This document shows positions 33,635 through 58,183 of a stretch of 64,000 bases of DNA, piece by piece. The stretch is from Candidatus Dactylopiibacterium carminicum (lineage in GTDB: Bacteria; Pseudomonadota; Gammaproteobacteria; Burkholderiales; Rhodocyclaceae). The position numbers were made by a program, and so were the translations under genes. The notes beneath the pieces were generated by a model. The model saw nothing but the letters and a program-made list of their open reading frames with translations. It ran no database searches and was not told where the DNA came from. Position 1 is the stretch's first letter. Each line of letters begins with the position of its first letter. Where the stretch lies: positions 1-64,000 of the forward strand of contig NZ_MDUX01000005.1 in NCBI RefSeq assembly GCF_014736495.1. Direction: 5' to 3'.

Positions 33635-33767
33635 CATGAGCCGCCCCCGGGCAGGGGAAGGGTCGTCAGCACCGCGCGACGTCGTATCATCGGCGTCGCG
33701 CAGGGTCGAGCGGGTGTGGTTTCCCCCTGACCGCGCGGTGTATCAAAGTCCAGAAAAACAGATATCC

Positions 33768-37198: not shown

Positions 37199-37377
37199 AC
37201 TGCGCGGTCAGCCGCCTCGTGGCATCGTGCGTTGCTGCCACGAGGGAACCGCCGTGCGGCTGTGCCGGTCCGAGGGGCTTGCGGACGGGCTTGACATGCC
37301 GGTGCCGCCGCCGCATCTTCTCCGGCCAGTGTTCCGGGTGCGGGCGCCCACACCCGTCCGGAAGAAAAGGATCAAGC

Positions 37378-40007: not shown

Positions 40008-40062
40008 TCCGGGAGGGCCGGTTGCCCGGCCTCGGTGTCGCAAGCGGTTGCAGCCAGCCGTT

Positions 40063-41220: not shown

Positions 41221-41268
41221 GGATGTCTCCTCAAGTCTTGTTTTGTGGTACAGCACACGAATGGTGTT

Positions 41269-41280
41269 GTTACCGGTAAC
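41269..41280. promoter_or_regulatory. LacI/GntR-type operator between divergent esterases
   Basis: Perfect 12-bp palindrome GTTACCGGTAAC, 49 bp before the minus-strand esterase and 158 bp before the plus-strand one. The CG-centred form is typical of LacI-family sites. The regulator is not adjacent; the LacI at 59818 appears to use a different palindrome. Confidence 0.65.
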
Positions 41281-41437
41281 TTGTGGCCGCCAAGATACCT
41301 CAGACCATCTCCGGAAAACAGGGGGATAAGGGAATCTCCGAAGGGGCGGAAGAAGCTTCATCTTGAGCAATCCCCGTCAGGAGGCGAATTCCGTTCCGCG
41401 CTAGAGTGCCGGCTTCCATGATAAGGAGAAACACAGC

Positions 41438-42184: not shown

Positions 42185-42236
42185 GTCCGGCCTGCCAGCG
42201 TGGGCCGGCAAGGTTCGCGCTGGCAGGAAGGGATCA

Positions 42237-45200
42237 CTACATGGTCATCAGGCTTGCATTTCCTCCCGCCGCCGTGGTGTTGATGCTGACGACGCGTTCG
42301 ATGACCAGGCGCTCCAGCGGGATGGCGGCACCTGCTGGCAGGTGCGTGATGCCCACCACTGGCCCCGGGCGTTGGGCCAGAACGCCCAGCCAGTGGCGAA
42401 GCTCCGCCTCGCTGCCCTGGTGCAGTACGGCATCGAAGCTGGCCCTGGCGAGATCGGTGGCCAGGCTGACGTGCTCGCGCAATGCTTCCGGCAGGCGGTC
42501 ACGCAATGCGGCTGCCTGTGAATCGTTGGCAGGCCATATCGCGCGGCTGCCCACGGCCAGGATGGCGGCAAGCTGGGCGAGTCTTTCCGCATTTTCCGTG
42601 GCGAGGCTCAGCACCGCCTTGCGCGGCAGCACCTGATAGTGATTGCTCTCGCCCGTGGGGCCGGGCAATGCAAGACGCGCGCCGCAGAAGAAGGGGACCG
42701 GTGCAGGCAGCCTGCTGCCTCGGGCCTCGCGCCACTGCTGCAGGATCTGCAAGGCTGGGCGCTCGGGGGCTGCCTGCAACTCGGTTTGTGTGCCGAAAGG
42801 CCTGGCGAGTGCGGCATCCGGCCGGCTGGCCAGCAGGCGATACAGGTAGAGCGGCCCGCCGGCCTTGGGACCGGTGCCCGAGAGACCTTCGCCACCGAAG
42901 GGCTGGACGCCCACCACCGCACCCACGATGTTGCGGTTCACATACAGGTTGCCGACCTGCGCATGGTTGGCGACCTGAGCGACGGTTTCGTCGATGCGCG
43001 TGTGCAGGCCCATGGTCAGGCCGTAGCCGAGGGTATTGATGCTTTCGATCAGCGCGGGCAGCTGGTCGCAGCGATAGCGCACGAAGTGCAGAACCGGGCC
43101 GAACACCTCGCGGGTGAGCCCGGCGAGATCCGGCAGCTCGATCAGCGTGGGGGGCACGAAGTGGCCGCCGCCTGTATCGGTGTTCCGCGGGCCGGGCTGA
43201 TGGACAGGACGGCCCTGGGCGCGTTGCATTTCGATGTGACGCTGGATGCTGGCCATGGCATCGGCATCGATCACCGGGCCGACATCGTTGGCCAGTTGTG
43301 CGGGATTGCCCAGGCGCAGTTCGGCCATCGCTCCCTTGAGCATGGTGAGCACGCGATCGGCGGCCTCTTCCTGCACGCACAGTACGCGCAGCGCGGAGCA
43401 GCGTTGGCCGGCGCTGTCGAAGGCCGATGACAGTGCGTCGATGACCACCTGCTCGGTCAGTGCCGAGGAATCCACGATTATGGCGTTCTGGCCGCCCGTC
43501 TCCGCGATCAGCGGGATCGGCAGGCCGGCAGGAGACAGGCGCTGCGCGAGCATGCCCTGCAGCAGGCGGGCGACTTCGGTCGAGCCGGTGAACATTACGC
43601 CTTGCACCCGGGCATCGCCTGCGAGCTGTGCGCCTACGCGCTCACCCCGGCCGGGCAACAACTGTAACGCGGCGAGCGGAATACCGGCCGCATGCAACAG
43701 ACGGACCGCGCATGCTGCGATCAGCGGAGTCTGCTCGGCCGGTTTTGCCAGCACGGTATTGCCGGCGGCCAGGGCGGCGGCGATCTGGCCTGTGAAGATG
43801 GCCAGCGGGAAGTTCCAGGGGCTGATGCAGACCACCGGGCCGAGCGGGCGATGCGTGGCGTTGTCGAAACCGGCCTGTACCTGAGTGGCGTAATAGCGCA
43901 GGAAGTCGATGGCTTCGCGCACTTCGGCAACGGCGTTGCCACAGGTCTTGCCGGCTTCGCGCGCCAGCAGGCCGAGGAGCGACTGCTGCTCGGCCTGCAG
44001 GGCGTCTGCCGCGCGCAGTAGCGCCGCGGCACGCTCGGCCGGCAGCACGGCAGCCCAGTGTGGTGCATATTCATGCGCCGTTTGCAGGGCAGCCTCCACC
44101 TCGGCAGAGGATGCTTCGCGCATATGGCCCACCACGTCACCGTGGTCGGCCGGGTTGAGGATGGTATGTCCGGCCTCCGTCGTCGCGATCGGCGTGGCAA
44201 TCATCGGTTCTGCGTATCGGGTCGTCGGGCCATTCAGCAGTGTCTGTGCCAGCGTACGCAGGGCCTGTTCGTCGTTCAGATCCAGCCCTGTGGAATTTTG
44301 CCGCGCGCTGCCGTAAAGATCGCCTGGCAGGGCAATGCCAGGATGCGGCAGGCCTGCCTGGCCATCGTGGGCGGCCATCGCTTCGACCTGCTCGACCGGG
44401 TTCTGCACCAGGGCTTCCAGTGGTACGGCCTCGTCCGCGATCTGGTTCACGAAAGAGGAATTAGCGCCGTTTTCCAGCAGGCGGCGCACCAGATAGGCGA
44501 GCAGGGTCTCATGCGTGCCGACCGGGGCGTAGATCCGACAGGGGCGGCCGAGGCGGCCTTCACTCACGGGGCCCACCACCTGTTCGTACAGGGGCTCGCC
44601 CATGCCGTGCAGGCACTGGAATTCGTATTGCTCGGGGTGGAAATCCTGTGGGCCGGCCATCTCGTGGATGGTCGCCAGCGTGTGCGCGTTGTGGGTGGCG
44701 AACTGCGGATAGACTGCGTCCGGGGCGGCCAGCAGCGTGCGTGCGCAGGCGAGATAGGCCAGATCGGTATAGGGCTTGCGCGTGTAGACCGGGTAATCCG
44801 CCAGGCCAGCTTCCTGACTGCGCTTGATCTCACTGTCCCAGTAGGCACCCTTGACCAGACGGATCATCAGCCGGCGGCCGCTGCGCCGCGCCAGATCGAT
44901 CACATGCCCGACCACGCCGGGGGCGCGCTTCTGGTAGGTCTGAATCACGAAGCCCAACCCCTGCCAGCCTGTCAGTGAAGGTTCGGTGCAGAGCCTTTCC
45001 AGCAGGTCCAGCGAGATATCCAGGCGGTCCACTTCTTCTGCGTCGATGCTCAGCCCGATGTCGTACTGGCGCGCCTGCTGGGCCAGGGTCAGCAGGCGCG
45101 GATACAGTTCGTCCATCACGCGCCCGATCTGTGCGCGGCAGTAGCGCGGGTGCATGGCCGATAGTTTGATCGAGATCCCCGGTCCGGCATACACCCCGCG

Positions 45201-45947
45201 CCCGCCCGACGCGCGACCAATGGCTTCGATCGCCTGGGTGTAGTCGCGGAAGTAGCGGTCGGCATCCGCCGCGGTCAGCGCGGCTTCGCCGAGCATGTCA
45301 TAGGAATAGCGGAAGCCCCTGGCCTCTAGCGAGCGTGCATGGGCCAGCGCCTCGGGCATGGTTTCGCCGGTGACGAACTGCTCGCCCATCATGCGCATGG
45401 CCATGTTCACGCCCTGGCGGATCAGTGGCTCGCCACCCCGCGCGATCAGCCGCCCGAGCGAGCCCGCCATGCCTTCCTGGCTGTGGCTGGAAACGAGCTT
45501 GCCGGTCAGCATCAGCCCCCAGGCTGCGGCATTCACGAACAGCGAATCGCTCTGGCCCACATGCCCCTTCCAGTTGCCTTGACTGATCTTGTCGCGGATG
45601 AGCGCGTCACGCGTGGCGCTGTCCGGGATGCGCAGCAGCGCCTCGGCCAGACACATCAGGGCAATGCCTTCCTGTGACGACAGCGAGAACTCCTGCAGCA
45701 GGCCCTGCACCATGCCGGCCTTGATGCCGCTGGCCTTGCGCGTACGCAACGTGCCTGCAATGCGCAACGCGAGCTGGCGACTGCGTTCGGCCAGTTCCTG
45801 CGGCAGGCGGGCCTGTTCCAGCAGGCACGGAATCAGCTCGATTTCTGGCGTGCGGCAGGCAGCCGTGATGGCTGCACGCAATGGCATTTGCTCAGGCAGT
45901 GGCGTGAGCTGTGCGAACGGCGAGGGGGCAGGCTGCGGTGCGTTCAT
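42237..45947 (-). CDS. putA: Bifunctional proline dehydrogenase / P5C dehydrogenase PutA
   Basis: Oxidises proline to glutamate in two steps with FAD and NAD+. The 1236 residues comprise a proline dehydrogenase barrel (about 180-480, RLVKGAYWDSEIKRSQEAGL), the P5C dehydrogenase domain (about 560-1010; LIAETGGQNAII, SAGQRCSALRVL with the catalytic Cys) and a C-terminal ALDH-like domain. There is no ribbon-helix-helix DNA-binding domain at the N-terminus, so it cannot repress itself as enteric PutA does. A divergent Lrp-type gene probably controls it. Confidence 0.97.
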   Translation of the reverse strand: MNAPQPAPSPFAQLTPLPEQMPLRAAITAACRTPEIELIPCLLEQARLPQELAERSRQLALRIAGTLRTRKASGIKAGMVQGLLQEFSLSSQEGIALMCLAEALLRIPDSATRDALIRDKISQGNWKGHVGQSDSLFVNAAAWGLMLTGKLVSSHSQEGMAGSLGRLIARGGEPLIRQGVNMAMRMMGEQFVTGETMPEALAHARSLEARGFRYSYDMLGEAALTAADADRYFRDYTQAIEAIGRASGGRGVYAGPGISIKLSAMHPRYCRAQIGRVMDELYPRLLTLAQQARQYDIGLSIDAEEVDRLDISLDLLERLCTEPSLTGWQGLGFVIQTYQKRAPGVVGHVIDLARRSGRRLMIRLVKGAYWDSEIKRSQEAGLADYPVYTRKPYTDLAYLACARTLLAAPDAVYPQFATHNAHTLATIHEMAGPQDFHPEQYEFQCLHGMGEPLYEQVVGPVSEGRLGRPCRIYAPVGTHETLLAYLVRRLLENGANSSFVNQIADEAVPLEALVQNPVEQVEAMAAHDGQAGLPHPGIALPGDLYGSARQNSTGLDLNDEQALRTLAQTLLNGPTTRYAEPMIATPIATTEAGHTILNPADHGDVVGHMREASSAEVEAALQTAHEYAPHWAAVLPAERAAALLRAADALQAEQQSLLGLLAREAGKTCGNAVAEVREAIDFLRYYATQVQAGFDNATHRPLGPVVCISPWNFPLAIFTGQIAAALAAGNTVLAKPAEQTPLIAACAVRLLHAAGIPLAALQLLPGRGERVGAQLAGDARVQGVMFTGSTEVARLLQGMLAQRLSPAGLPIPLIAETGGQNAIIVDSSALTEQVVIDALSSAFDSAGQRCSALRVLCVQEEAADRVLTMLKGAMAELRLGNPAQLANDVGPVIDADAMASIQRHIEMQRAQGRPVHQPGPRNTDTGGGHFVPPTLIELPDLAGLTREVFGPVLHFVRYRCDQLPALIESINTLGYGLTMGLHTRIDETVAQVANHAQVGNLYVNRNIVGAVVGVQPFGGEGLSGTGPKAGGPLYLYRLLASRPDAALARPFGTQTELQAAPERPALQILQQWREARGSRLPAPVPFFCGARLALPGPTGESNHYQVLPRKAVLSLATENAERLAQLAAILAVGSRAIWPANDSQAAALRDRLPEALREHVSLATDLARASFDAVLHQGSEAELRHWLGVLAQRPGPVVGITHLPAGAAIPLERLVIERVVSINTTAAGGNASLMTM

Positions 45948-45988
45948 GATGTGTTGGCCGGAAATGCAAGGTTGTTGAATGTTTGCTA

Positions 45989-46008
45989 ATCATTTCAAAA
46001 TTCATGAT
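45989..46008. promoter_or_regulatory. AT-rich dyad between putA and lrp-like gene
   Basis: ATCAT-N10-ATGAT in an AT-rich stretch, a plausible binding site for the divergent Lrp/AsnC-type regulator. It is 42 bp from putA and 46 bp from the regulator gene. Confidence 0.45.
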
Positions 46009-46053
46009 AAATAATTCGCTATATTTGTCTGACTGACTGGTGAAATATTCAGC

Positions 46054-46530
46054 ATGGCCGCCTCGCAAATCGATCTCGACCGTACCGACCTTCGCATCCT
46101 CAAATTGCTGCAGGAAGATGGCCGCCTCTCCAATCTCAAGTTAGCCGAAGCCGTGGCTCTATCACCCACGGCAGTACTGGCGCGCGTGCAGCGGCTGACG
46201 CGCGACGGCTACATCCTGGGGTACGAGGCGCGGCTCAACCCGCTGAGGCTGGGCGCCGGCATGCTGGTGTTCGTGGAGGTGCTGCTCGATCGCACCACGC
46301 CAAACGTATTCGAGCAGTTCAAGGTGGCGGTGCAGCTGCGCCCGGAAATCATGGAATGCCACATGGTGGCGGGGGGCTTCGATTACCTGATCAAGACACG
46401 CACGGCCGACATGGCAGCCTACCGGGCCTTTGCCGGCAACGTGCTTTGGCAGTTGCCGGGGGTGCGCGAAACACGCACTTATGCCGTGATGGAGGAGATC
46501 AAGAACACCTCGCGCCTGCATCTGGGCTGA
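46054..46530 (+). CDS. Lrp/AsnC-family regulator (PutR-like)
   Basis: Transcription regulator of 158 residues. It has an N-terminal winged helix-turn-helix (DLRILKLLQEDGRLSNLKLAEAVALSPTAVLARVQRL, about 11-47) and a C-terminal RAM ligand-binding domain (about 70-150; VAGGFDYLIKTRTADMAAYRAF). The divergent arrangement with putA is that of PutR-type activators that respond to proline, so activation of putA is inferred. Confidence 0.92.
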   Translation: MAASQIDLDRTDLRILKLLQEDGRLSNLKLAEAVALSPTAVLARVQRLTRDGYILGYEARLNPLRLGAGMLVFVEVLLDRTTPNVFEQFKVAVQLRPEIMECHMVAGGFDYLIKTRTADMAAYRAFAGNVLWQLPGVRETRTYAVMEEIKNTSRLHLG

Positions 46531-46585
46531 GCCGGCGTGGCTGCCGTTCGCGCGAATGGAGGGCTGATGGGCATCGACTGCGTGT

Positions 46586-46751
46586 CTGGATTCCGGCCTG
46601 TTGCCGGGATGACGCCTGTCGGCAGGTGATCTTGCATCTGGCGTGATGGTTGGGCGGCCAGGGCGGAGAGCGAAAATTTGGCGCCGTAATGCCCGGCATG
46701 AGGCGCTGATTCCTTCGCTTCGGCGTTATCCCGGCGAAAGCCAGGATCCAG
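46586..46751. repeat. Two GGATTCCGG/CCGGGATGACG-type repeats
   Basis: Segments 46586-46614 and 46725-46751 belong to the dispersed 'GTCATTCCGGCG..AAGCC' family in opposite orientation. Nothing else is visible in the 46531-46778 gap. Confidence 0.55.
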
Positions 46752-46778
46752 AGGAACCGGACAGCATTACATCCAGGT

Positions 46779-47132
46779 TCAGCGCCGTGTTTCTTCTTCC
46801 GGTACTTCGCGGATCACTTCGCCTTCGAGCACGATGCCGTCGTCTCTGGCTTCCGGCTTCGCATCGCTGGATGCACGCTGACGGAACACAGCTTCCGCCA
46901 TGCCGGCCTGTTCGCGCATCTGACGGCGCAGTGTGCGGGTTTTCCACCACAGATAGGCCCAGGCGATGGCGCCGCCCACGACGCCGACCGCCAGCACGAC
47001 GACCGAGAACATCAACGAAAGGGCGAGCAAGCCCAGCGCGGCGACGGTTGCCACCACTTTGCCGAGCAGACCGGTTGAACGGCCGCTAGGGCGGGAGAGT
47101 CGCGCGAAGCGGATGTTTTGTTGTGAATACAT
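46779..47132 (-). CDS. Small uncharacterised membrane protein
   Basis: A 117-residue protein with a basic N-terminus, a hydrophobic region of about 35 residues (about 27-62, VVATVAALGLLALSLMFSVVV.. long enough for one long or two short helices), the charged KTRTLRRQMREQAG helix and an acidic C-terminus (EGEVIREVPEEE). I do not recognise a family. ATG at 47132 was chosen since the upstream frame shows no sensible protein. It is monocistronic, divergent from the radical SAM gene. Confidence 0.7.
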   Translation of the reverse strand: MYSQQNIRFARLSRPSGRSTGLLGKVVATVAALGLLALSLMFSVVVLAVGVVGGAIAWAYLWWKTRTLRRQMREQAGMAEAVFRQRASSDAKPEARDDGIVLEGEVIREVPEEETRR

Positions 47133-47379
47133 GCTTTTCCTTGCGGCAGCGTCCGGCTGCATGAAGTGATCGTGCGGGTCTGAGCCCGAAATGGCGGAAA
47201 GATTCCCGGCGGGCGTCGGCGTGCTGCGAGGGAGGCGGGTTTTATCCCTCGGATATGGGGTGACTCTGCCGGGTTTCAATGCCTGCGCCGTGTCGGCCAG
47301 TCGTGGCTTCGATCTGAAACAAGGCGCTGGCGCCTGTTGCGCGGCAACATGGTTGTTTGCAAGCTGAAGTCCTGCCGCC

Positions 47380-48309
47380 ATGAAATACCTGTTTGGTCCG
47401 GTCAACTCCCGCCGTCTCGGCAGGTCGCTGGGCATCGATCTGCTCCCTTTCAAGACCTGCTCGCTCGACTGCATCTATTGCGAATGCGGCTGGACCACCA
47501 CACGCACACTGGAGCGGGCTGAATGGGTGCCTACGGAGGATGTGCTGGGCGAACTCGACAGCGTGCTCGCCGACGCTCCCGAGCTGGATTACGTTACTTT
47601 CTCAGGCTCCGGTGAGCCCACGCTACATCGGGGCATTGGCCGGGTGATCAAGCATCTGAAGACCCGCTATCCGCAGTACAAGGTGGCCGTGCTCACCAAT
47701 GCCACGCTGTTGGGCGACAAGGCCGTGCAGGCCGAGCTGATGGCCGCGGACCTGGTGTCTCCCTCGCTGGACGCTGCTACACGCAAGGCCTTTGCGCGCA
47801 TCTGCCGCCCGGTGCGCGGTGTGCACATCGATTCCTTGATCGAAGGCATCACGGATTTTCGCAGGAATTACACCGGGCAGTTGCTGCTGGAAGTGTTCAT
47901 CGCTCCCGGCATCAATGATTCCGACATCGAGCTGGCGGCACTGAAAGCCGCCCTGGAGCGCATCGAACCCGATGCCATCCAGCTCAACCGCCTTGACCGC
48001 CCGGCTCCCGAGCCAGGATTGGTAGCGATCGCCAGCAACGAACAACTGGAAGCCATCCGCGCGTACCTGCAACCGCTGCAGGTGCAGATCGTACGCCAGC
48101 GTCAAGCCGGCGAGCCCGCGCCCTGGGACAGCACAGCGCTCTTCCGCGAAATCCTCGCCGTGATCGACAAGGGCATCACCCGGCTCACGCCCCTGTCAGT
48201 CGCCACCGGCATCCGCGAAGGCGACCTCGCCAAGACCCTGCAACGGATGGCTGCGCAGCAACTGATCGTGGTCGACGGGGAAACAGGTGCGGTGCGAGGC
48301 AGGTTTTAG
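47380..48309 (+). CDS. Radical SAM protein (COG0731-like)
   Basis: Radical S-adenosylmethionine enzyme of 309 residues, substrate unknown. The cluster motif C-x3-C-x2-C is present as CSLDCIYC (about 28-35), followed by VTFSGSGEPTLHRGIG (SAM-binding GGE-like motif) and LTNATLLGDKAV. The N-terminal MKYLFGPVNSRRLGRSLGIDLLPFKTCS is the family's start. The last 60 residues resemble a small winged-helix (TRLTPLSVATGIREGDLAKTLQRMAAQQLI). It has no operon partners. Confidence 0.9.
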   Translation: MKYLFGPVNSRRLGRSLGIDLLPFKTCSLDCIYCECGWTTTRTLERAEWVPTEDVLGELDSVLADAPELDYVTFSGSGEPTLHRGIGRVIKHLKTRYPQYKVAVLTNATLLGDKAVQAELMAADLVSPSLDAATRKAFARICRPVRGVHIDSLIEGITDFRRNYTGQLLLEVFIAPGINDSDIELAALKAALERIEPDAIQLNRLDRPAPEPGLVAIASNEQLEAIRAYLQPLQVQIVRQRQAGEPAPWDSTALFREILAVIDKGITRLTPLSVATGIREGDLAKTLQRMAAQQLIVVDGETGAVRGRF

Positions 48310-49146
48310 CCATGATCTAGGAACCTGTTCAACGTCTTCCATATGCCATGTAAACCTCTCCCCACCCCTTAATCCCGTTCGCTCAAGACGATGCCGTCAT
48401 TCTGGCACTAGTCGGAGTCTCGTGTCTTGGGGCGCATCCGGATCCCGGTTTGCGCCGGGATGACGTTGATTTGACAGGGTTTCGGCTTGAGTGACCGGCA
48501 TCCCGCCGCAGCCCTCCCGTTATCAGAATGAGGTCGGGAGGGGGGCAAAAAAGGCTTATGCCATCGCTGGCTTTATGCCATTAAAAGCAGCTTCCGAGCC
48601 TTGATACGCTGCTTATCTCCACGGTTGCGGCCGTCTCCCCGTGCTGCGATCCGACTGAAACCGGACCTGCAAGGCGTGTGCGGTCCCGGCGGGCGGGCCT
48701 TGCGTGGCGAACCGGCTGCGGCAGCACAACGCAATGTGCTGCTGTTTGCCCTCCACGTTGATGGTCTCTCACGACAGATCGCAGACAAATCCTGCGTCCA
48801 AGCACCCATTGAACCTGGGCTGCGTGTGTCGAGAGTCTTGCCCGGTAATCGTTGCAGGGACGCTGTCTGCAGCGAGCCGATGCCGGGGGCTCCGTACGTG
48901 CTTTTAGATCAGTCGTTCCGGACGTCGCATGCAGGAGGGCAGGGTGAGGCGGTGCTGCATCACGTACGGTCGGTGATCCGCCAGGAGACCTCTTGCGTCG
49001 CTACGCCCCGAACTGCTCAAAGCAAGACTGGGCAAGGTTCTCGGTTTGTTAATACCTTTTTACAACTAATATCGGTTGAGCCGGTTTAGCATGAATTGTC
49101 AAGTTGGCTGCACCTTTCGCCATTTCACGTACTTTGTTCCTGCGAC
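48310..49146. other. Gene-poor region with degenerate repeats
   Basis: No convincing gene is seen. It contains a solo end of the 30135-type element (48318), a TCATTCTGGCAC..CCGGGATGACG repeat (48390-48465), a CCCTCCCG..CGGGAGGGG hairpin (about 48513-48545) and a CTGAAACCGGACCTGCAAGG repeat-like block near 48654. Short open frames here are translations of these repeats. The last part should hold the promoter of the regulator at 49147. Confidence 0.6.
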
Positions 49147-50403
49147 ATGCCCAAGCTCACAGATCTTGCCGTCGATCCACAGGTGGGAGTCATCCCGAAG
49201 AGGTGCCGCCGCGCTTGCCATGGGCTGACGCAGTCTTTCCGTGTGGTCCTGTTGCTCAAGGCGAAAGGGCGTTATGGTCGCAGCATCATCGAAGGAGTCT
49301 GTGACTATGTGAAGTCGACCCGCTGTGGTTGGGAAGTCCTGCTCGAGGAGGACTTCCGCTCGCACGTGGAATGTATTTCGGATTGGGATGGCGATGGTGT
49401 CATTGCCGACTTCGACGATCCCGAACTGCTCGACCTGCTTGTGGGTGGCCATCTTCCGGTGGTGGGAGTCGGCGGCTCTTACCAGAGCAATGCGGCGTAC
49501 CTGAAAGGCATTCCTTATGTCGCCTCCGACAACCCAGCATTGGTCAGGATGGCGTATGAGCATCTGATCGATATGGGCTTGTCGCATTTCGCCTTTTATT
49601 CGATCGTGCCGACCTCCCACAATCGCTGGGCGGGAGAGAGGGAAAAGGCTTTCAGCTGCCTCGTGACGGCAGATCGGCACGAAGTGCTGGTCTATAGAGG
49701 GATTCCGACCTTCGCCCCAGACTGGACCACCATTCCCGAAAATCTGGCTGACTGGATCAAGACTCTGCCGAAGCCCGTGGGCATCATTGCAGTCACTGAT
49801 TCGCGCGCACGACAGGTCATGCAGGCATGTGCTTCATTGGGGCTTTCCGTGCCGGAAGAGGTGGCCGTCATCGGAATTGACGATGACCCTTTGATGAGCC
49901 TGCTGAACCGTATTCCTCTGAGTTCGGTCGCACAGGGTACGCATGAGATGGGACGCATCGCCGCCCAGATGCTGCATCGGCGTCTGACCAGCACACTACC
50001 AGTCGCGCCTCACCAGACGGTGTTGCCTGAAGGCGTCAACGCGCAAGCATCAAGCCTTCACAAGCCGCTGCACGACCCCTATGTGATGCGGGCGAAGCAC
50101 TTCATCCGGCAGTTTGCCGCTCAGGGTATCCGCGCCCCTCAGGTTGCGGACTATGTCGGAGTGACCCGCACGACGCTTGATGCACATTTCCTCCGGGAGT
50201 TAGGGCATACCGTGCATGAAGAGATCTTTTCCTTCAAGTTACGCCAGTCTCAGATCCTGCTCAAGGCAGGCATGCTGAGCTATTCGAAAGTTGCGCAGTG
50301 CAGTGGATTTACCTCGCTTCAGTACATGTATGCCGTATACAAGCGGGAATTTGGATGCACGCCTGTTGAATACCAGATGCGTCATCAGGGGAACTCCCTT
50401 TGA
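49147..50403 (+). CDS. XylR-type AraC-family regulator with LacI-like sensor
   Basis: Sugar-responsive activator of 418 residues. The N-terminal two-thirds is a periplasmic-binding-protein-like sensor (RVVLLLKAKGRYGRSIIEGVCDYV, IGIDDDPLMSLLNRIPLSSV), and the C-terminal 100 residues form an AraC double helix-turn-helix (IRAPQVADYVGVTRTTLDAHFLRELG, YSKVAQCSGFTSLQYMYAVYKREFGCTPVEYQ). E. coli XylR has this architecture, but the ligand here may be another pentose or a pectin-derived sugar. ATG 49147 was taken; a TTG at 49096 would add 17 residues. The next gene, with direct repeats in its promoter, is the likely target. Confidence 0.88.
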   Translation: MPKLTDLAVDPQVGVIPKRCRRACHGLTQSFRVVLLLKAKGRYGRSIIEGVCDYVKSTRCGWEVLLEEDFRSHVECISDWDGDGVIADFDDPELLDLLVGGHLPVVGVGGSYQSNAAYLKGIPYVASDNPALVRMAYEHLIDMGLSHFAFYSIVPTSHNRWAGEREKAFSCLVTADRHEVLVYRGIPTFAPDWTTIPENLADWIKTLPKPVGIIAVTDSRARQVMQACASLGLSVPEEVAVIGIDDDPLMSLLNRIPLSSVAQGTHEMGRIAAQMLHRRLTSTLPVAPHQTVLPEGVNAQASSLHKPLHDPYVMRAKHFIRQFAAQGIRAPQVADYVGVTRTTLDAHFLRELGHTVHEEIFSFKLRQSQILLKAGMLSYSKVAQCSGFTSLQYMYAVYKREFGCTPVEYQMRHQGNSL

Positions 50404-50997
50404 TAAAGATGCCAAGGGTCTGTTGACTCTGCTGGCCGTGCTCGTCCGAAAGCGCGGACAGGGCAGTATCTGGCAACGAAGGCAGGTGCACGATCATCGC
50501 GTGTCTTGCTGGCGCTCTCCTGACAAGGAAAGGCCAGGGGCACAGGGGCATGGCCCAACCCCTTTCGGCCAAGACATGGCCGTCCTCCGGCGCAAGCAGG
50601 AATCTAGTGTGTTTTCGAGTGCCTTTGAATCCCCCGTTGACCAGGGGATTCATCCCCCAAGCCGCAGGATCCAGGTGAGCGGCATTAGAGGTCGGGGTGG
50701 GGCGGAGTAAAGCTGGGCCGTGGTCGGTTTCAGGACGCAGAAAAGAGCGCCAACAGGCCCCTCCTACTTGCATGGCAACACATCACGCCGGCTGATCGCC
50801 GCGGATGCAATTCGCAGCCAGAAAAAACATAAAAGCGATTTGTATGGCAACCGAGCCAGTATTTGGCATGCGTGTCAGGCAATTTTGGGCGCGAGGGGGA
50901 TTGTTGTCAGGCAGTTTTGGCAACGTCTGGACATATCGGGCGTTTTCAACGTGGAAGCGCCAAGCAATAAATCAAAACCACAACAAAGGAATGATCA
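50404..50997. other. Intergenic region upstream of GH140-like gene
   Basis: No gene is supported in these 594 bp. Small open frames have no recognisable content. The distal part carries the direct repeats described separately, and base composition drops toward AT near 50820-50990, as expected for a promoter. Confidence 0.55.
50874..50920 (+). promoter_or_regulatory. Tandem direct repeats, likely AraC/XylR-type operator
   Basis: GTCAGGCAATTTTGG (50874-50888) and GTCAGGCAGTTTTGG (50906-50920) are 14/15 identical in the same orientation, 32 bp apart start to start (about three helical turns). They end 78 bp before the GH140-like gene. AraC-family proteins bind such direct repeats. Confidence 0.65.
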
Positions 50998-52539
50998 ATG
51001 CGTAATCTGGCAATGCTTCTCTGTGCGGTCCTCACTCTGGGGGCCTGCGGTGGGGGTGGCGACGGCGGAGATGAGGTCGCGTCTTCCCCGCTGCCTGTAT
51101 CGCCGTCTTACTCCTGGCCCTTGGAGGTCTCGAGCAACGGGCGTTTTCTCGTTCACTCGGAGGATAACTCCCCGTTCTTTTGGCTGGCCGATACGGCGTG
51201 GTTAATGTCTTACAAATTGACCCGCGAGGAAATCAATACGTATCTCGAAAATCGTCGCGACAAGGGCTACAACGTGCTGCAGATCTCGCCCTTGCACAGC
51301 ATGTTGAAGCCGAACGTTTATGGCGCAACGCCGCTGAAAAAAGGTGATCTTGCCAAGATCAATACCACGCCAGGAAGCGATTTCGGCGACGCAGCCCAAT
51401 ACGATTACTGGGACAATCTCGATTACCTGATCGATAAGGCTGCCGAGTACGGGATTTACGTGGCCATCGTGCCGATCTGGGGCTCCAACGTCGTCGCCAC
51501 CACGTCAAGCGCCAATGTTCCTGTTGTGGTCACGGTAGATTCCGCCACGGCGTATGCCAAGTTCCTCGCGGATCGCTACAAGAACAGGCCCAATATCGTC
51601 TGGTTCGTGGGCGGTGACCAGAAGGGGAGTATCCGGAGTGAGATCTGGGATGCGATGGGGCAGGCGTTCCGCGACAACGACCCTAATCACCTGATCTCCT
51701 ATCACCCGCGTGGCCGCTGGAATTCCTCGGAATGGTTCCACAACAAATCGTGGCTCGATTTCAACATGTTCCAGTCGGGGCACCGGACCTATGCGCAGGA
51801 CACACCGGAAAACAATCCGGGTGAGCATAACTACGGCGAGGACAACTACAAGTATGTGCAGGCGGACTACCTCTTGTCGCCCGTGAAGCCGACGCTCGAT
51901 GTGGAGCCTTCCTATGAGGACTACCCCAAGGGGATCAGCAAGAATACCGATGGCACGCGTTGGCAACCGGAAGATGTACGCCGTTATGCCTACTGGGCCG
52001 TGTTTGCCGGTGCCTTCGGCCACAGCTATGGGCACAATTCTCTGATGCAGGTCTACCGCGTGGGCGATGGAACCGATGGAGCCTTGTTCTCGGCAGACGA
52101 TTTCCCCCGTGATTACTGGAATGTAGCGCTGGAGGCGGCGGGTGGAGTGCAATTGCCGATCCTCAAGAAACTCATGCTGTCGCGCTCATACCTGACCCGT
52201 GTGCCAGACAACAGCATGGTGGCCGACCAAGGGACGCAATACGACTACGTTGCGGCAACCCGAGGCGAAGGCTACGCATTCTTCTACACGTACACCGGGC
52301 GCAACTTCACGGTCAATCTTGGTGTTATCGAAGGTACCCAGGTTAAGGCGACATGGTTTGACCCGCGTAGCGGCCTGACTCAGGTTGCCAGTGCCTCCGG
52401 CAATGCCACGGGCATTTACGCGAATACCGGCACGCAGACCTTCGACCCGCCGGGAACGGCTGCGTCTGCCGCACCGACGCGTCCGGCCGGATTGGCCTAT
52501 GGCAATGACTGGGTACTGATCCTCGACAGCGTCAAGTAA
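50998..52539 (+). CDS. DUF4038 glycoside hydrolase lipoprotein (GH140-like)
   Basis: Secreted, lipid-anchored glycosidase of 513 residues. A lipobox LTLGAC puts the lipid-linked Cys at about residue 17, followed by a Gly/Asp-rich spacer and a TIM-barrel DUF4038 domain (about 45-410; NGRFLVHSEDNSPFFWLADTAW, GYNVLQISPLH, RPNIVWFVGGDQ, DVEPSYEDYP) and a C-terminal putative collagen-binding beta domain (about 425-510). DUF4038 proteins include GH140 apiosidases acting on rhamnogalacturonan II; substrate here is inferred. The gene follows a XylR-type regulator. Confidence 0.85.
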   Translation: MRNLAMLLCAVLTLGACGGGGDGGDEVASSPLPVSPSYSWPLEVSSNGRFLVHSEDNSPFFWLADTAWLMSYKLTREEINTYLENRRDKGYNVLQISPLHSMLKPNVYGATPLKKGDLAKINTTPGSDFGDAAQYDYWDNLDYLIDKAAEYGIYVAIVPIWGSNVVATTSSANVPVVVTVDSATAYAKFLADRYKNRPNIVWFVGGDQKGSIRSEIWDAMGQAFRDNDPNHLISYHPRGRWNSSEWFHNKSWLDFNMFQSGHRTYAQDTPENNPGEHNYGEDNYKYVQADYLLSPVKPTLDVEPSYEDYPKGISKNTDGTRWQPEDVRRYAYWAVFAGAFGHSYGHNSLMQVYRVGDGTDGALFSADDFPRDYWNVALEAAGGVQLPILKKLMLSRSYLTRVPDNSMVADQGTQYDYVAATRGEGYAFFYTYTGRNFTVNLGVIEGTQVKATWFDPRSGLTQVASASGNATGIYANTGTQTFDPPGTAASAAPTRPAGLAYGNDWVLILDSVK

Positions 52540-52566
52540 GCAGGCAGGGTTCAGACGTTCTTGCAA

Positions 52567-52602
52567 GGGGCTTCCCTCGCGAAATGCGGGGAAGCCCTTT
52601 TT
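52567..52602 (+). terminator. Rho-independent terminator after GH140-like gene
   Basis: GGGCTTCCC..CGC pairs with GCG..GGGAAGCCC and is followed by a run of five T, 28 bp after the stop codon. Confidence 0.92.
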
Positions 52603-52863
52603 GTATCCTTCCTTTACGGTTTTCTGCTTGTACAGTCACACAAAGTGAGACCGTCCGAAGTGTTCTGCGCAATGCTTTAACGCCGGGCTAGCACGATGCT
52701 TCTGTCCTTCAGGACAGTATTCCGGTTCGCCACCGGTTGATAGCGGAAGGCGGCGTTTGAGTGTGCATGCTAATGGCCTGCTGAAGCGCCGCTTGTGGAG
52801 CCTGTGTACGGTGCCTGCCGGCTCACGTCGTGATGGAGCGCTTACCCATCGTGTCCCCAGTAA
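52603..52863. other. Intergenic region between converging genes
   Basis: With the terminator it makes up a 324-bp gap (52540-52863) between the GH140-like gene and the minus-strand transglutaminase-like gene. No gene or strong hairpin is visible in this part. Confidence 0.5.
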
Positions 52864-53649
52864 TCACATCATCCGCACCGTCACCCGAACCTCTTCCTGG
52901 CCGCCCCCTTGATGCATGCTGCGCATCGGGCAGGCGTCGAGATAGTCGCGGCCGACGGCAAGGCGGATCTGGTGGCCGCTGGCGAGTTCGCCACGGCGGG
53001 CGTCGAAGCTGACCCAGCCGCCGGCGGCTTCGAGCCAGATGCCGGCCCAGGCGTGTTCGCGCACGCGTTCGCCGAGCTGGTAGCCGCTGACGAAGCGGGC
53101 GGGCAGGCCGACTGCACGGCAGGCGGTGAGCAGCACATGGACCTGGTCGGGCAGGGTGGCTGCCTGGCGGGTGAAGCTTTCGGCTGCGCCGCGCAGGGGC
53201 TCGCCGCCGGAGGGCGTGGGGCGCAGATGAGCGCGCAGGGCTTCGAGCAGGGCGAGCACGTCGGCGATGTGCTGTGGTGCCCGGCCCAGGTGCGTCCGGG
53301 CGAGTGCGGAAAGTGCGGCATCGGGCTGGGTGAGGCTGGTACTGGCAAGGTAGATCGGCAGTGTCAGGCCATCGCAGTCGGTGCCGATCAGGGCTTGTCC
53401 CTGGTCCGGAATCTCGACTTCGCCGGTGACCACGATGCGTACATTTTCGTGGGGTGCGGTGAGGCTCAGCAGGTGCGTGGTATTGCCCCAGGCATCGACG
53501 CTGCGGCTGCTGCGCGCCGGGGTGTTCACCTCCCAGCGTGAGATCTTCACGCCTCCTTCTTCCCGCGGAGTGATGCGCAGCTTGCGGATGGAGTAACTGG
53601 CCGGGCTGTCATAGTGGCAGCGGGTTTCGTGACGGATGCTGTACTTCAT
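52864..53649 (-). CDS. Transglutaminase-like protein lacking catalytic Cys
   Basis: A 261-residue homologue of the protein at 36233-37198, with the same N-terminal domain (YSIRHETRCHYDSPASYSIRKLRITPRE) and core fold (TACRAVGLPARFVSGYQLGERVREHAWAGIWLE, SFDARRG). Aligning GVCQDFAHLML of the paralogue with ATLPDQVHVLL here puts Leu where the catalytic Cys should be; His and Asp positions are kept (EHAW, SFDA). It is therefore probably inactive as a thiol enzyme and may be a binding or regulatory subunit. GGAGG precedes the ATG. It follows the alpha-E gene by 95 bp. Confidence 0.85.
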   Translation of the reverse strand: MKYSIRHETRCHYDSPASYSIRKLRITPREEGGVKISRWEVNTPARSSRSVDAWGNTTHLLSLTAPHENVRIVVTGEVEIPDQGQALIGTDCDGLTLPIYLASTSLTQPDAALSALARTHLGRAPQHIADVLALLEALRAHLRPTPSGGEPLRGAAESFTRQAATLPDQVHVLLTACRAVGLPARFVSGYQLGERVREHAWAGIWLEAAGGWVSFDARRGELASGHQIRLAVGRDYLDACPMRSMHQGGGQEEVRVTVRMM

Positions 53650-53744
53650 TTCGAAACCTCCGGTTGTTCAGGACAGGGCAACCAGGACTCAGGATTGCGT
53701 GCATTCACGCGCCTGCAAAGCTGGCGAAAATGCTGCCTCGGACC

Positions 53745-54692
53745 TCAGGTTGTAACAGGTACCAGGAAGTCGCTGGCGATGCGGTTGCCGATGTCGTTGA
53801 TGCGGATGATGAAGCGGGTCAGGTAGCTGTGGACGCCCGCTTCCAGCACGTCGTCGATGCGGCCGTAGCGCAGGCTGGAGGCGAGCTCGCCGGCACGGCG
53901 TTGGGTTTCGTCCGAACGCGTGTTGGCGACTTCGTGCAGGAAGCTGAGCATCTCGTCGGTGCAATAGGCGAGCGAGCGGGGCATGTCCCGCCGCAGGATC
54001 AGCAGTTCGGCCACGCGCGAAGGGGTGATCTGGTCGCGATAGACCTTGCGGTAGATCTCGAAAGCGGACACCGAGTGCAGCAGTGAACTCCACTGGTAAT
54101 ACTCGCCGGCATCGTTGCGGCGTGGCGCTTCGTTGATGAAGTTGTACTTCACGTCGAGGATGCGGGCGGTATTGTCGGCACGCTCGATGAAGGTGCCCAG
54201 GCGCAGGAAACAGTTGGCCTCGTCGCGCATCATGGTGGCGAAGGAGACGCCGCGGAACTGGTGCGAGCGCAGTTTCACCCACTCGAAGAAGGCATCCAGT
54301 TCGTCGGCGCCCATGCGCGCGATGTCGAACTTGCCCAGATCGAGCCAAGTGGCGTTGATGGTTTCCCACAGTTCGGCGGTAAGCGTGCCGCGCACGGCGT
54401 GTGCGTTTTCCCGCGCGGCGCGCAGGCAGGAGTAGATGCTGCCGGGGTTGGCGCGGTCCAGTGCCATGAAGTGCACCACTTCGGCTGGCACGAGCTTCTC
54501 GCCGTGCGTGTTGAAGTAGGTCTGCAGCAGCCCGATGGAGTCCAGCGTTTCGCGCCACAGGCGCACGTTCTCGCGGTCGCTCTGAGGCATCAGCAACATG
54601 CGGTTGTTCACGTCCAGCATGCGCGCGAGGTTTTCGGCGCGCTCGACGTAGCGGGCCATCCAGTACAGGTGATCGGCGGTACGCGAAAGCAT
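53745..54692 (-). CDS. Alpha-E domain protein (DUF403)
   Basis: All-helical protein of 315 residues with the alpha-E signature LSRTADHLYWMARYVERAENLARMLDVNNR at the start, matching the C-terminal half of the fusion at 33768-36236. Its biochemical role is unknown; it always travels with circularly permuted ATP-grasp proteins and may help peptide ligation or substrate binding. It begins 2 bp after the ATP-grasp stop codon, so the two are surely cotranscribed. Confidence 0.92.
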   Translation of the reverse strand: MLSRTADHLYWMARYVERAENLARMLDVNNRMLLMPQSDRENVRLWRETLDSIGLLQTYFNTHGEKLVPAEVVHFMALDRANPGSIYSCLRAARENAHAVRGTLTAELWETINATWLDLGKFDIARMGADELDAFFEWVKLRSHQFRGVSFATMMRDEANCFLRLGTFIERADNTARILDVKYNFINEAPRRNDAGEYYQWSSLLHSVSAFEIYRKVYRDQITPSRVAELLILRRDMPRSLAYCTDEMLSFLHEVANTRSDETQRRAGELASSLRYGRIDDVLEAGVHSYLTRFIIRINDIGNRIASDFLVPVTT

Positions 54693-54694
54693 GC

Positions 54695-56155
54695 TCAGTC
54701 CTCCAGAACCCAGGTGTCCTTGGTGCCCCCGCCTTGCGAGGAGTTCACCACCAGCGAGCCTTCCTTGAGCGCCACGCGCGTGAGCCCGCCCGGCACGAAG
54801 CGCACTTCGTGGCCCGAGAGCACGAAGGGGCGCAGGTCGATGTGGCGCGGCGCGATGCCGGTATCCACGAAGGTGGGGCAGGTGGAGAGCGAGAGCGTGG
54901 GCTGGGCGATGTATTTCTCGGGGGCGGCGAGGATGCGTTTGCGGAAATCCTCGATCTCGGCCTGGGTCGATGCCGGGCCGACCAGCATGCCGTAGCCGCC
55001 AGCACCGTGAACTTCCTTCACCACCAGCTCGGGCAGGTGCGCCAGCGTGTAGGCGAGGTCGTCAGGCTTGCGCAGCATGTAGGTGGGCACATTGTTGAGA
55101 ATGGGCTCTTCGCCGAGGTAGAAGCGCACCATGTCGCCCACGTACGGGTAGATGGATTTGTCGTCCGCCACGCCGGTGCCGATGGCGTTCGACAGCGTGA
55201 CGTTGCCGGCGCGGTAGGCCGAGAGCAGGCCCGGCACGCCGAGCATCGAATCTGGGCGGAAGGCGAGAGGGTCGAGGAAGTCGTCATCGATGCGGCGGTA
55301 GATCACATCCACGCGCTGCGGGCCTTGTGTGGTGCGCATGAAGACCTGCTCGTCGCGCACGAAAAGATCCTGCCCTTCGACGAGCTCCACGCCCATCTGC
55401 TGGGCGAGGAAGGCGTGTTCGAAATAGGCGCTGTTGAAGCTGCCCGGCGTGAGCACGACCACGGTGGGATCGAGTACGCCCTTGGGCGCCACGGCACGCA
55501 GGGTGTCGAGCAGCAGGTCGGGATAGTGCTCGACCGGGGCAACGCGGTTCTTGGCGAAGAGTTCGGGGAAGAGCCGCATCATCATCTTGCGGTTTTCGAC
55601 CATGTAGCTCACGCCGGAGGGGACGCGCAGGTTGTCTTCCAGCACGTAGAACTCGCCCGCGCCAGCCCGCACGATATCCACGCCAGCGATCGCCGCGTAG
55701 ATGTTGTTGGGCACATCCACGCCTTGCATCTCGGGGCGGTACTGCGCGTTGGAGATCACCTGTTCGGCTGGAATGCGGCCGGCCTTCAGGATCTCCTGGC
55801 CGTGGTAGATGTCATGGATGAAGGCGTTCAGCGCCTTCACGCGCTGGCGCAGGCCATCGGCCAGCGAGCGCCATTCATGTGCGGGGATGATGCGCGGGAT
55901 CACGTCGAAGGGGATCAGGCGCTCGGCGCCGGCTTCGTCACCGTAGACCGCGAAGGTGATGCCGGAGCGCCGGAAAAGTGCGTCGGCCTCGTGGCGCTTG
56001 CGCCCCGTGCGCTCGGCGCTCATGCCGTCGAACCAGTCCACGTACGCCTGATAGTTCGGACGCAGCTCGCCGCTGGCGCTGCTCATCTCGTCGTAAAACC
56101 GCGTATTGCCTGCCCGGGTCGGGAATTGCTCTTTTGTATCTTTTGTCGGGGCCAC
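54695..56155 (-). CDS. Circularly permuted ATP-grasp protein (DUF407/DUF404)
   Basis: Predicted ATP-dependent ligase of 486 residues. Motifs: GITFAVYGDEAGAERLIPFD, VLEDNLRVPSGVSYMVENRK, VVVLTPGSFNSAYFEHAFLAQ, RRIDDDFLDPLAFRPDS, ELVVKEVHGAGGYGMLVGP and the final SSQGGGTKDTWVLED. These match the N-terminal half of the 33768 fusion. No ATG fits the family start; GTG at 56155 has AGGAG at six bases and is taken. First gene of the operon ATP-grasp, alpha-E, transglutaminase-like. Confidence 0.9.
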   Translation of the reverse strand: MAPTKDTKEQFPTRAGNTRFYDEMSSASGELRPNYQAYVDWFDGMSAERTGRKRHEADALFRRSGITFAVYGDEAGAERLIPFDVIPRIIPAHEWRSLADGLRQRVKALNAFIHDIYHGQEILKAGRIPAEQVISNAQYRPEMQGVDVPNNIYAAIAGVDIVRAGAGEFYVLEDNLRVPSGVSYMVENRKMMMRLFPELFAKNRVAPVEHYPDLLLDTLRAVAPKGVLDPTVVVLTPGSFNSAYFEHAFLAQQMGVELVEGQDLFVRDEQVFMRTTQGPQRVDVIYRRIDDDFLDPLAFRPDSMLGVPGLLSAYRAGNVTLSNAIGTGVADDKSIYPYVGDMVRFYLGEEPILNNVPTYMLRKPDDLAYTLAHLPELVVKEVHGAGGYGMLVGPASTQAEIEDFRKRILAAPEKYIAQPTLSLSTCPTFVDTGIAPRHIDLRPFVLSGHEVRFVPGGLTRVALKEGSLVVNSSQGGGTKDTWVLED

Positions 56156-56476
56156 GCTGATCTCCTGCTGGCTGGGTGCCGTCGGTGGACAGGCTGTCTT
56201 TGCGAGAAGCGTGCTATGTACGCGCAAGCCGGGTTTTGTGTTCGCCCGTTGATGCGCATGCTCCGTCGTGGTGCATGCCGGCAGGATGCCGCTCAGGCTG
56301 GTGCGGTCATCGGGGGCGTCTCTTCCCGACACCGATCAGGGGAGGCAGGTGGAGGCAAAGGTTGGCGTTTCAGGCCTTTTGTGGGGCACCCGGTGAGGAC
56401 GGGGGATGCAAATCGGCCGACGGCCAGTCCCGGGAGGACTGGTCGTCGGCCGATGTTGTCTTTTCCGGAGCGACGG
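56156..56476. other. Intergenic region with strong hairpin
   Basis: Between two minus-strand genes. A hairpin at 56412-56454 (ATCGGCCGACG/CGTCGGCCGAT plus CCAGTCC/GGACTGG) lies just downstream of the 56477-58183 gene and probably terminates or stabilises its transcript, although the T-run is short. No gene is seen. Confidence 0.65.
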
Positions 56477-58183
56477 TCAGTAGCTCAGGTCGATCTGGTA
56501 GATCGCGGTGCTGCCGCTGGTTTCGTTGCCGACGATGAGCAGCGGCTTGCCATTCGGCGAATCCGCCGCCGGAACCACGGCCAGGCCTTCGGGGCCGCGG
56601 TCGCCGGTTTCACCTGCGCGCGGATTCACGTAGGTGACGAAAGCGGGGGCGGCAGGCGTGGTGATGTCATACACCATCACGCCGCCTACGCGCTCGAGGC
56701 CGATGAAGGCGTAGGTCTTGCCACCGAAATGCCCCAGTACCACGCCTTCAGGTTCGGGGCCCTTGGCCGTGCTGCGTGCATCCAGCTTGTCGTTGTCGTT
56801 GCTGGCATTGAAATTCACGTTGCTCAGCGCCTGGGTGCGTTGCTCGAATTCGTCGCCGGAGTCATAGACCTGTCTGGCATCGGTCTTCCAGATCGAGAAG
56901 GAGCGTGCTCCGAAGGAATACAGGGCGGTGCAGGTGCCGCTGGTGTCCTTGCCGGTGTCGATGCTGCCGCCGTTGTAATTGGCGGTGATCTTGAGGCGAC
57001 CCAGATTGCTGTCACGGATCGCGTTGGCGGCATCGGCGAAAGCCGTGGCATCCAGGCTGTCGCAGTGCGCACGCACGCGAACTTTCTCCGCGAATCCGTC
57101 GTACTCGCGGGCATCGCCCTCGTTGGCCGTCACCAGGTAGGTCTCGCCGCCCACGGTGTAGGAGGCGATGGCGTCCGGCATGTACATCCCCTTCACAGGG
57201 ACCGTGCGGATCTTGATGGCGGGCGTGCCGTTGTTGGTGTTCTCGCCCCCATCTTCGTCGCTGACGTCCATGCCGTTGCCGGCGAGGCTGTGGTCCTTGA
57301 GGCCGAAGGGGCGGATCGCGGTGATGGTCTTGCTGGCGATGTCCAGTTCGGCCACGGCATTGTTTTCCTGCAGCGTGATCCAGGCCTTGCTGCTGTCCGC
57401 AGCAACGGTGATGTACTCGGGCTCGAGATCCTGCGCCACGCTGGCATTCGGGCCGAAGATGCGTACGCCGGCAGCGCGCAGGCTGTCGATCTGGCTGTTG
57501 TAGGCCGTGAAGCCGGCTTGTGTGGCGGTCATGCTGACGCTGGTCACGGTCGGGCCGAGAGGGCCTAGCGCGATCACGCTGATCGAACCTTCCGGGTCGA
57601 TGGAGTCCGACTGGTCGTAGCTGCTCGGTTCGCCTTCGTTGGCCACCAGCAGGGTCTTGCCGTCGGGCGTGAAGGTGAGCATGTCGGGCAGCGCACCGAC
57701 GCTGGCAGTGCCGAGCGTGACGAGGTCCGAGGCTCGGAGCAGGGCGGCGATGCCGTTGCTGGTTTTGGGGTTGGCTTCGATGGTCAGCGCCACCACGCCA
57801 TCATGCACGGCGACGCTGTTGACGCCGCCCAGGCCGCTGCCGAAGCTGGCCGTGCTGATCGAGCTGATCAGTGTGGGGGCGGTCGGGTCGGCAAGATTCA
57901 GTACGTCCACCGTGCCCAGCGCGCCATTCACCACGAACAGGCGTTTGCTCAAAGGGTCGTAGGCGGTGATTTCCGCCGAGCTTGCGCCGCCATCGTGCTG
58001 GAAGCCGCCAATCTTGCTCAGCGTCAGCCCCGTAGGCGTGGGTTCCACGCTGCTTGCAGAGCTGCTGGAGGCGCTGCTGCCTGACTGTGTCGTGTCGCTG
58101 TCCGAGCCACCACAGGCGGCAATGAGGATTGCGCTGAGGATCAGCGAGCCGGCGAGGGCTGCGCGGAATTTAGGTTTGTTCAT
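56477..58183 (-). CDS. Choice-of-anchor I family lipoprotein
   Basis: Exported beta-propeller-like protein of 568 residues. It begins with a lipobox signal (LILSAILIAACGGS, lipid-linked Cys about residue 24), a Ser-rich spacer, then repeats such as GGFQHDGGASSAEITAYDPLSKRLFVVNG, PEYITVAADSSKAWITLQENNAVAELD, TVGGETYLVTANEGDAREYDGF and the C-terminal GPEGLAVVPAADSPNGKPLLIVGNE, which fit the choice-of-anchor I group. Related proteins bind phosphate esters or phytate-like ligands, but the role here is unknown. ATG 58183 starts the signal peptide. Confidence 0.87.
   Translation of the reverse strand: MNKPKFRAALAGSLILSAILIAACGGSDSDTTQSGSSASSSSASSVEPTPTGLTLSKIGGFQHDGGASSAEITAYDPLSKRLFVVNGALGTVDVLNLADPTAPTLISSISTASFGSGLGGVNSVAVHDGVVALTIEANPKTSNGIAALLRASDLVTLGTASVGALPDMLTFTPDGKTLLVANEGEPSSYDQSDSIDPEGSISVIALGPLGPTVTSVSMTATQAGFTAYNSQIDSLRAAGVRIFGPNASVAQDLEPEYITVAADSSKAWITLQENNAVAELDIASKTITAIRPFGLKDHSLAGNGMDVSDEDGGENTNNGTPAIKIRTVPVKGMYMPDAIASYTVGGETYLVTANEGDAREYDGFAEKVRVRAHCDSLDATAFADAANAIRDSNLGRLKITANYNGGSIDTGKDTSGTCTALYSFGARSFSIWKTDARQVYDSGDEFEQRTQALSNVNFNASNDNDKLDARSTAKGPEPEGVVLGHFGGKTYAFIGLERVGGVMVYDITTPAAPAFVTYVNPRAGETGDRGPEGLAVVPAADSPNGKPLLIVGNETSGSTAIYQIDLSY

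Follow-up and report, generated by a model that had tools for sequence, protein, structure and literature searches.

The minus-strand gene at positions 52864 to 53649 of the window, by which we mean the whole 64-kb stretch of DNA analyzed here, raises the question of why a bacterium should keep a transglutaminase-like protein that has lost its catalytic cysteine. A first-pass annotation of this DNA was right about the residue and probably also right in taking the protein for a pseudoenzyme. What it did not contain is that the operon is of the Anbu type but has no Anbu. This Anbu-less Anbu operon, together with the coincidence of the cysteine and Anbu losses, is what is new here; the finding is directly testable, and phylogenetically it is a single case.

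Transglutaminase fold and active-site residues

The open reading frame has an ATG start preceded by GGAGG and encodes a 261-aa protein that matches Bact_transglu_N (PF08379; E 2.2e-18, 67.2 bits against a cutoff of 27) and Transglut_core (PF01841; E 1.5e-12, 48.2 bits against a cutoff of 23); an NCBIfam search tried with six proteins gave zero family assignments. In an AlphaFold2 model with a mean pLDDT of 92.2, the closest solved structure is 3isr (Z 23.8, rmsd 2.9, 242 residues aligned), which is also the top match by sequence among solved structures (E 2.3e-10). Further structural matches include protein 4.2 (Z 9.1) and many active transglutaminases (Z 9 to 11). By sequence and predicted fold, the protein belongs to the bacterial transglutaminase-like family, outside its catalytic members.

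The leucine that had been reported at the cysteine position is indeed there. In a multiple alignment, Leu166 (ATLPDQVH) is aligned with the cysteine of GVCQDFAH in relatives, and the cysteine of AGVCRDFAH in 3isr sits opposite the same residue. The codons of T165-L166-P167 in this former catalytic motif (53149 to 53157, minus strand) stand where canonical GVCQD orthologues have V-C-Q, and in the model a predicted helix, 166-179, starts at Leu166. Three congeners, to whose orthologues the window gene is about 74, 71, and 58 % identical, have suffered the same loss: the cysteine column reads Leu, Leu, Leu, and Val in the window's own genome (G000), G011, G122, and G150, respectively, with no cysteine within one residue on either side. 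Two of these genomes were identified through identical proteins, G011 as Uliginosibacterium aquaticum IMCC34675 and G150 as Rhodocyclaceae bacterium UBA1310. The catalytic aspartate is kept in all four Cys-less proteins, whereas the catalytic histidine has become tyrosine in G011, G122, and G150, so that what was said earlier, that the His and Asp regions are still there, is true of the window protein, with His199 (HAW) and Asp216 (FDARR), and fails for the histidine of its three congeners.

Because the genome is a 122-contig draft, one might suspect a sequencing or assembly error, which had been named as something that could overturn the reading. However, leucine or valine is found at this position in the assemblies of three other species, two of which match named deposits, and the residues around the cysteine position have changed too. 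We rejected this explanation on the strength of the three congeners, and the probability left to it is practically negligible.

Another cysteine, Cys177 of LLTACRAV, lies near the motif in sequence, and the first-pass annotation had allowed that it might fall into the active site; that it replaces the missing nucleophile is highly improbable. Cys177 coexists with the catalytic cysteine in all 23 canonical orthologues (a set without loci L196 to L198), which led us to reject it as nucleophile. It is cysteine likewise in all 13 distinct Methyloversatilis-type proteins, in the Anbu-bearing congener G152, in each of the four Cys-less proteins, and throughout another alignment of 12 rows, and the column holds alanine in three of three distant relatives and leucine in four of four paralogues. 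Moreover, by the helix register of the model, it comes twelfth in helix 166-179, at a distance from the N-terminal end, where the nucleophile sits. Read from the alignments, Cys177 is a residue of the subfamily and no substitute nucleophile.

The protein would still be an enzyme if another residue in a rebuilt pocket had taken over, for example, Thr165 helped by Glu198 and Asp216. A164, T165, E198, R218, and R219 are invariant across the four Cys-less orthologues, T165, E198, R218, and R219 occur in none of the 23 canonical ones, and the Methyloversatilis proteins have a cysteine at the 165-equivalent position in 13 of 13 distinct sequences. However, new invariant residues are only weakly enriched near the triad (5/27, versus 17/234 elsewhere; p 0.06) and their clustering is not significant, the histidine is missing in three of the four proteins, and the model helix starts at 166, with residue 165 just before it. 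We know of no precedent for a rebuilt nucleophile in a transglutaminase fold and regard this explanation as quite improbable. The same five residues, A164 included, might also form a new charged pocket for a peptide or tag that the ATP-grasp/Alpha-E pair makes, the protein then acting as a reader in the position otherwise filled by an active transglutaminase and Anbu; a site retooled in this way is in our judgment unlikely.

An Anbu-type operon without Anbu

Three genes lie in order on the minus strand from 56332 to 52864: a gene for a circularly permuted ATP-grasp protein of the split type (54695 to 56332; PF14403, E 8.8e-169), 545 aa as called with a true start that may be further in; a gene for a 315-aa Alpha-E protein, also of the split type (53745 to 54692; PF04168, E 5.8e-99); and the transglutaminase gene. 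For three genes, this is the layout of the Anbu operon, which passages of PMC5666114 and PMC6376114, both citing Iyer et al. 2009, give as ATP-grasp, Alpha-E, transglutaminase, and Anbu. At the place that Anbu takes in related operons, the next gene past the transglutaminase encodes an Apiosidase-like protein on the opposite strand (50998 to 52539, plus strand; identified as an open reading frame and by Pfam), marking the absence of Anbu. A hairpin of 19 pairs with a T-rich tail after it (56412 to 56454) lies in the interval separating the ATP-grasp gene from its upstream neighbor, and a promoter scan of 52400 to 56800 found none.

No Anbu was found in the 64-kb window. With the Anbu protein of G152 as the query (E <= 0.001), there was no match in G000, G011, G122, G150, G151, G153, or G074, and the query recovered itself in G152 as a control. 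The proteasome family PF00227 was not found in six of the eight genomes of the genus (G000, G011, G122, G150, G151, and G153); this profile scores the Anbu of G152 only near the cutoff, and more weight goes to the Anbu protein search. HslV, too, is apparently absent from the same six genomes, in which no PF00227 protein was found. G152 has a second weak proteasome-family match (C73:34089-34592, locus L201; 22.3 bits), which the Anbu protein search did not report.

The window also carries a paralogous, fused-type locus (30293 to 37198, plus strand), made up of a transglutaminase-DUF2126 fusion that keeps its cysteine (SGSCRDSAWL; 30293 to 33634, from Pfam and the motif), a fused ATP-grasp and Alpha-E protein (33507 to 36236), and a second transglutaminase (36233 to 37198), in whose translation we saw the intact GVCQDFAHLML that had been ascribed to it. 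In four congeners (L045 to L048) the fused-type and split-type loci are convergent and close, with about 0.4, 0.9, 2.2, and 2.7 kb between the transglutaminase genes, of which the 2.7 kb lie beyond Anbu; in the window they are 15.7 kb apart (37198 to 52864).

Distribution of the cysteine and of Anbu in relatives

The genus is represented by eight genomes, including the window's own, and five of them have a split-type transglutaminase gene. The gene is missing from G074, G151, and G153, even though Alpha-E is present; in G151, the Alpha-E gene is at a contig end with no split-type transglutaminase downstream. The fifth gene is that of G152 (L048:9790-10578), the congener with Anbu, which has GASCD, that is, serine at the cysteine column and a cysteine one residue later, and which keeps its histidine.

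In a survey of the window protein's own split-type subfamily across 395 genomes of the family, a threshold of E <= 1e-50 yielded 25 genes: 7 with canonical GVCQD, 13 with the cysteine one residue early, that of G152, and 4 without the cysteine. Anbu lies directly downstream of 20 of the 25, and the 4 without Anbu are exactly the 4 Cys-less genes; in G066, counted as Anbu positive, the gene is truncated where its contig ends, and the rest of a matching gene, with Anbu after it, is on a second contig. The question, raised in the first-pass annotation, of whether orthologues in split loci also lack the cysteine can thus be answered: the three congeners do, with Leu, Leu, and Val, and the Anbu-linked orthologues have it at the column or one residue away. 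Only three genomes besides the window's own reached E <= 1e-45 in a survey of 369 genomes of the class, all with both the cysteine and Anbu.

The early cysteine is a property of Methyloversatilis, as genus g6 proved to be from identical proteins of named loci. All 13 genomes with the gene have GC[SG][AT]D (GCSAD, GCGAD, or GCSTD) in place of GVCQD, and all are Anbu linked (L053 to L055, L125, L126, L128, L135, L141, L165, L184, L187, L189, and L190). Serine or glycine fills the canonical cysteine column, and in a model of a Methyloversatilis protein, Cys163 stands one residue before helix 164-177.

We also collected named loci through Alpha-E, taking the best 80 of at least 580 and dropping 7 for an incomplete locus, and scored Anbu only if it began, on the strand of Alpha-E, no more than about 2.8 kb downstream of that gene. 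Within the 73 readable loci among these best 80 of at least 580, cysteine and Anbu occur together in 17, a shifted cysteine and Anbu in 8, Anbu without a split-type transglutaminase alongside in 17, and neither gene in 29; the remaining 2, Cys-less and without Anbu, are G011 and G150 again. ATP-grasp and Alpha-E are therefore found without an adjacent split-type transglutaminase in 46 of the 73 readable loci (best 80 of at least 580), and in none of the 73 does a Cys-bearing split-type transglutaminase occur without Anbu. The named and family sets overlap, so that their counts are not additive. An unrecognized transglutaminase after Alpha-E was considered for the 29 loci with neither gene and rejected when a split-type profile search of all 29 gave none; inspection by eye of up to five open reading frames after Alpha-E in 15 of the 29, over the first 90 residues of each, likewise found nothing transglutaminase-like. 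Two of the 29 loci (L105 and L111), from Ferrovaceae and Ferrovum metagenome-assembled genomes, have, directly after a split-type Alpha-E gene and thus at the expected place of a split-type transglutaminase, a long gene like transglutaminase-DUF2126, the DUF2126 part of which is presumed from length and motif.

In the wider class, where 68 genomes had a match, we examined 30 Anbu loci over 1.5 kb upstream (less for L064 and L067), and only in L077 was Anbu directly preceded by a transglutaminase match. Outside the split-type subfamily, the four genes do not generally occur in this arrangement.

Phylogeny and selection

For the transglutaminase alignment set, identical proteins were counted once, and L195 (the contig-end gene of G066, the same gene as L016 and L056) was left out. 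In the transglutaminase tree, in which long branches were flagged, the four Cys-less proteins form one clade with G152 as its sister, and the loss of the cysteine and of Anbu was therefore probably one evolutionary episode. The Methyloversatilis transglutaminases are on a long stem branch of this tree. In a tree of Alpha-E and ATP-grasp, G152 falls outside (99.9/100), followed by U. gangwonense and Candidatus Dactylopiibacterium and then by the Cys-less species; the inner nodes have moderate SH-aLRT/bootstrap values (77.8/85 and 80.5/72), and the order of G122 and G150 is not resolved. U. gangwonense and Candidatus Dactylopiibacterium have, in this tree, ATP-grasp and Alpha-E with neither transglutaminase nor Anbu alongside. 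From the tree and from G151, which is without the gene, it follows that some members of the Anbu-less part of the genus have no such gene and others keep a dead copy.

Among the four Cys-less genes, dN/dS (NG86) is 0.17 to 0.29 over six pairs, and the same species pairs give 0.11 to 0.20 for the Cys-bearing paralogue, 0.08 to 0.15 for Alpha-E, and 0.06 to 0.08 for ATP-grasp, all of these values being rough because dS is high. The Cys-less gene exceeds the paralogue in five of the six pairs. Pairs with G152 give higher values throughout (transglutaminase, 0.39 to 0.57; paralogue, 0.26 to 0.36; Alpha-E, 0.25 to 0.40; ATP-grasp, 0.11 to 0.17). Between G000 and G011, identity is about 73 % for the transglutaminase, 87 % for Alpha-E, and 93 % for ATP-grasp, which makes the transglutaminase gene the fastest evolving in the operon.

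A conservation of at least 90 % among the 23 canonical orthologues defines 82 columns. All four Cys-less proteins retain 50 of these, and 26 are gone from three or all four of them. Losses concentrate at the triad: of the conserved columns no more than 4 residues from it, 8 of 13 have been lost, versus 18 of 69 elsewhere (p 0.016), whereas a control clade that keeps its cysteine has lost 1 of 14 near the triad and 5 of 68 elsewhere. The corresponding figures are 5/13 versus 11/69 for Methyloversatilis (p 0.07) and 6/13 versus 22/69 for G152 (p 0.25).

These data bear on the possibility that the gene is a relic on its way out, under relaxed selection since Anbu and the cysteine were lost and persisting only for lack of time. 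That three of the eight genomes of the genus lack the gene fits such a view and makes its function dispensable, and so does its place as the fastest-evolving gene of the operon, with a dN/dS above that of the Cys-bearing paralogue in all but one pair. However, the frame is open over its full length in four species, down to 57 % identity, dN/dS is in the range given above, 50 of the 82 conserved columns are kept in all four proteins, and the losses are focused on the triad and not spread. We rejected simple neutral decay as the main reading on the basis of dN/dS and kept it as a rival, one that we hold to be unlikely. A retained pseudoenzyme, rather than a product of neutral decay, is supported by the triad-focused losses, the dN/dS of 0.17 to 0.29, and the predicted fold. 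The earlier proposal of a likely pseudoenzyme fits with the loss, within the clade, of the cysteine in four of four proteins and of the histidine in three of four, with losses around the triad, and with the coding constraint that has been kept.

Interpretation and relation to known systems

The explanation that we favor, and consider probable, is that the protein is a transglutaminase-like subunit, catalytically dead, from an Anbu operon that has been reduced, and that it has a fold under selection, most likely as a partner of the ligase pair or its product. The full operon encodes a circularly permuted ATP-grasp ligase, Alpha-E, a transglutaminase-like enzyme with a Cys-His-Asp triad, and the proteasome-like protein Anbu. 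One Uliginosibacterium-type lineage is without Anbu and has a transglutaminase without its nucleophile, while the ligase pair remains under strong constraint. No thioester could then form at the usual site, catalysis would be required only alongside Anbu, and the retained fold may bind, or act as a scaffold for, the ATP-grasp/Alpha-E pair or the peptide that the pair makes.

As far as the comparison of sequences goes, the protein is most likely a noncatalytic, dispensable accessory of the ATP-grasp/Alpha-E pair. The earlier suggestion that it binds the product or regulates this pair may hold: ATP-grasp, Alpha-E, and transglutaminase are linked in all four species, but a strong partner role is opposed by the many lineages in which the pair stands without a split-type transglutaminase. 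The association between the loss of the cysteine and that of Anbu is suggestive; it comes from one clade and may be the coincidence of a single episode, and G152 and Methyloversatilis count against the favored explanation in that the canonical cysteine can go while Anbu stays.

In the sampled loci (best 80 of at least 580) the genes are nested, in that Anbu without a split-type transglutaminase occurs and a Cys-bearing split-type transglutaminase without Anbu is unseen. If this nesting holds elsewhere, transglutaminase chemistry would serve the Anbu branch and ATP-grasp with Alpha-E would be a self-standing core, and the Cys-less species would serve this idea as naturally occurring separation-of-function mutants.

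The nearest known system is the Anbu operon, with which the window operon shares the same three kinds of protein in the same order, and family orthologues have Anbu directly downstream; it differs in that the operon and the genome are without Anbu and the transglutaminase is without its cysteine. Passages of PMC5666114 and PMC6376114 (2017) offer hypotheses for the function of the Anbu operon, none of them confirmed according to one of the two. In the parts of PMC6376114 that describe Yersinia bercovieri, pull-downs with Anbu as bait did not specifically recover any other protein of the operon, the pairing of ATP-grasp with transglutaminase being outside their scope; the ATP-grasp protein freed phosphate from ATP, and Anbu had no peptidase activity on the substrates tried. 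In those portions of the literature that the search covered, there was no mention of an Anbu operon whose transglutaminase lacks the cysteine.

A dead transglutaminase domain encoded in one operon with an ATP-grasp gene is described, in sections of PMC12239564, for RloB of Pseudomonas aeruginosa. According to the same sections, RloB differs in that its domain is joined to seven membrane helices and its partner is a secreted aspartic protease, and the main text of that paper leaves Alpha-E unmentioned. We considered and rejected an RloB-type protein here: the 261-aa protein consists of two transglutaminase domains with no fusion to seven transmembrane helices, and every helix of the model is 14 residues or shorter.

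The top match by both sequence and fold, 3isr, a transglutaminase-like putative cysteine protease of Cytophaga hutchinsonii, differs in having the cysteine of AGVCRDFAH and is 20 % identical in the structural alignment. The paralogue at 36233 to 37198 has the same two Pfam domains and is 28 to 32 % identical to the window protein but has a full Cys-His-Asp triad and lies in a fused-type locus, beside the fused ATP-grasp and Alpha-E gene. Erythrocyte protein 4.2 (EPB42) serves in binding or as a scaffold, a role that the window protein may share. Termed catalytically inactive in a passage of PMC10318531, it is eukaryotic and multidomain and its context is unrelated, but, with a Z of 9.1 to the model, it offers a parallel to the presumably inactive window protein as a transglutaminase fold that has no activity.
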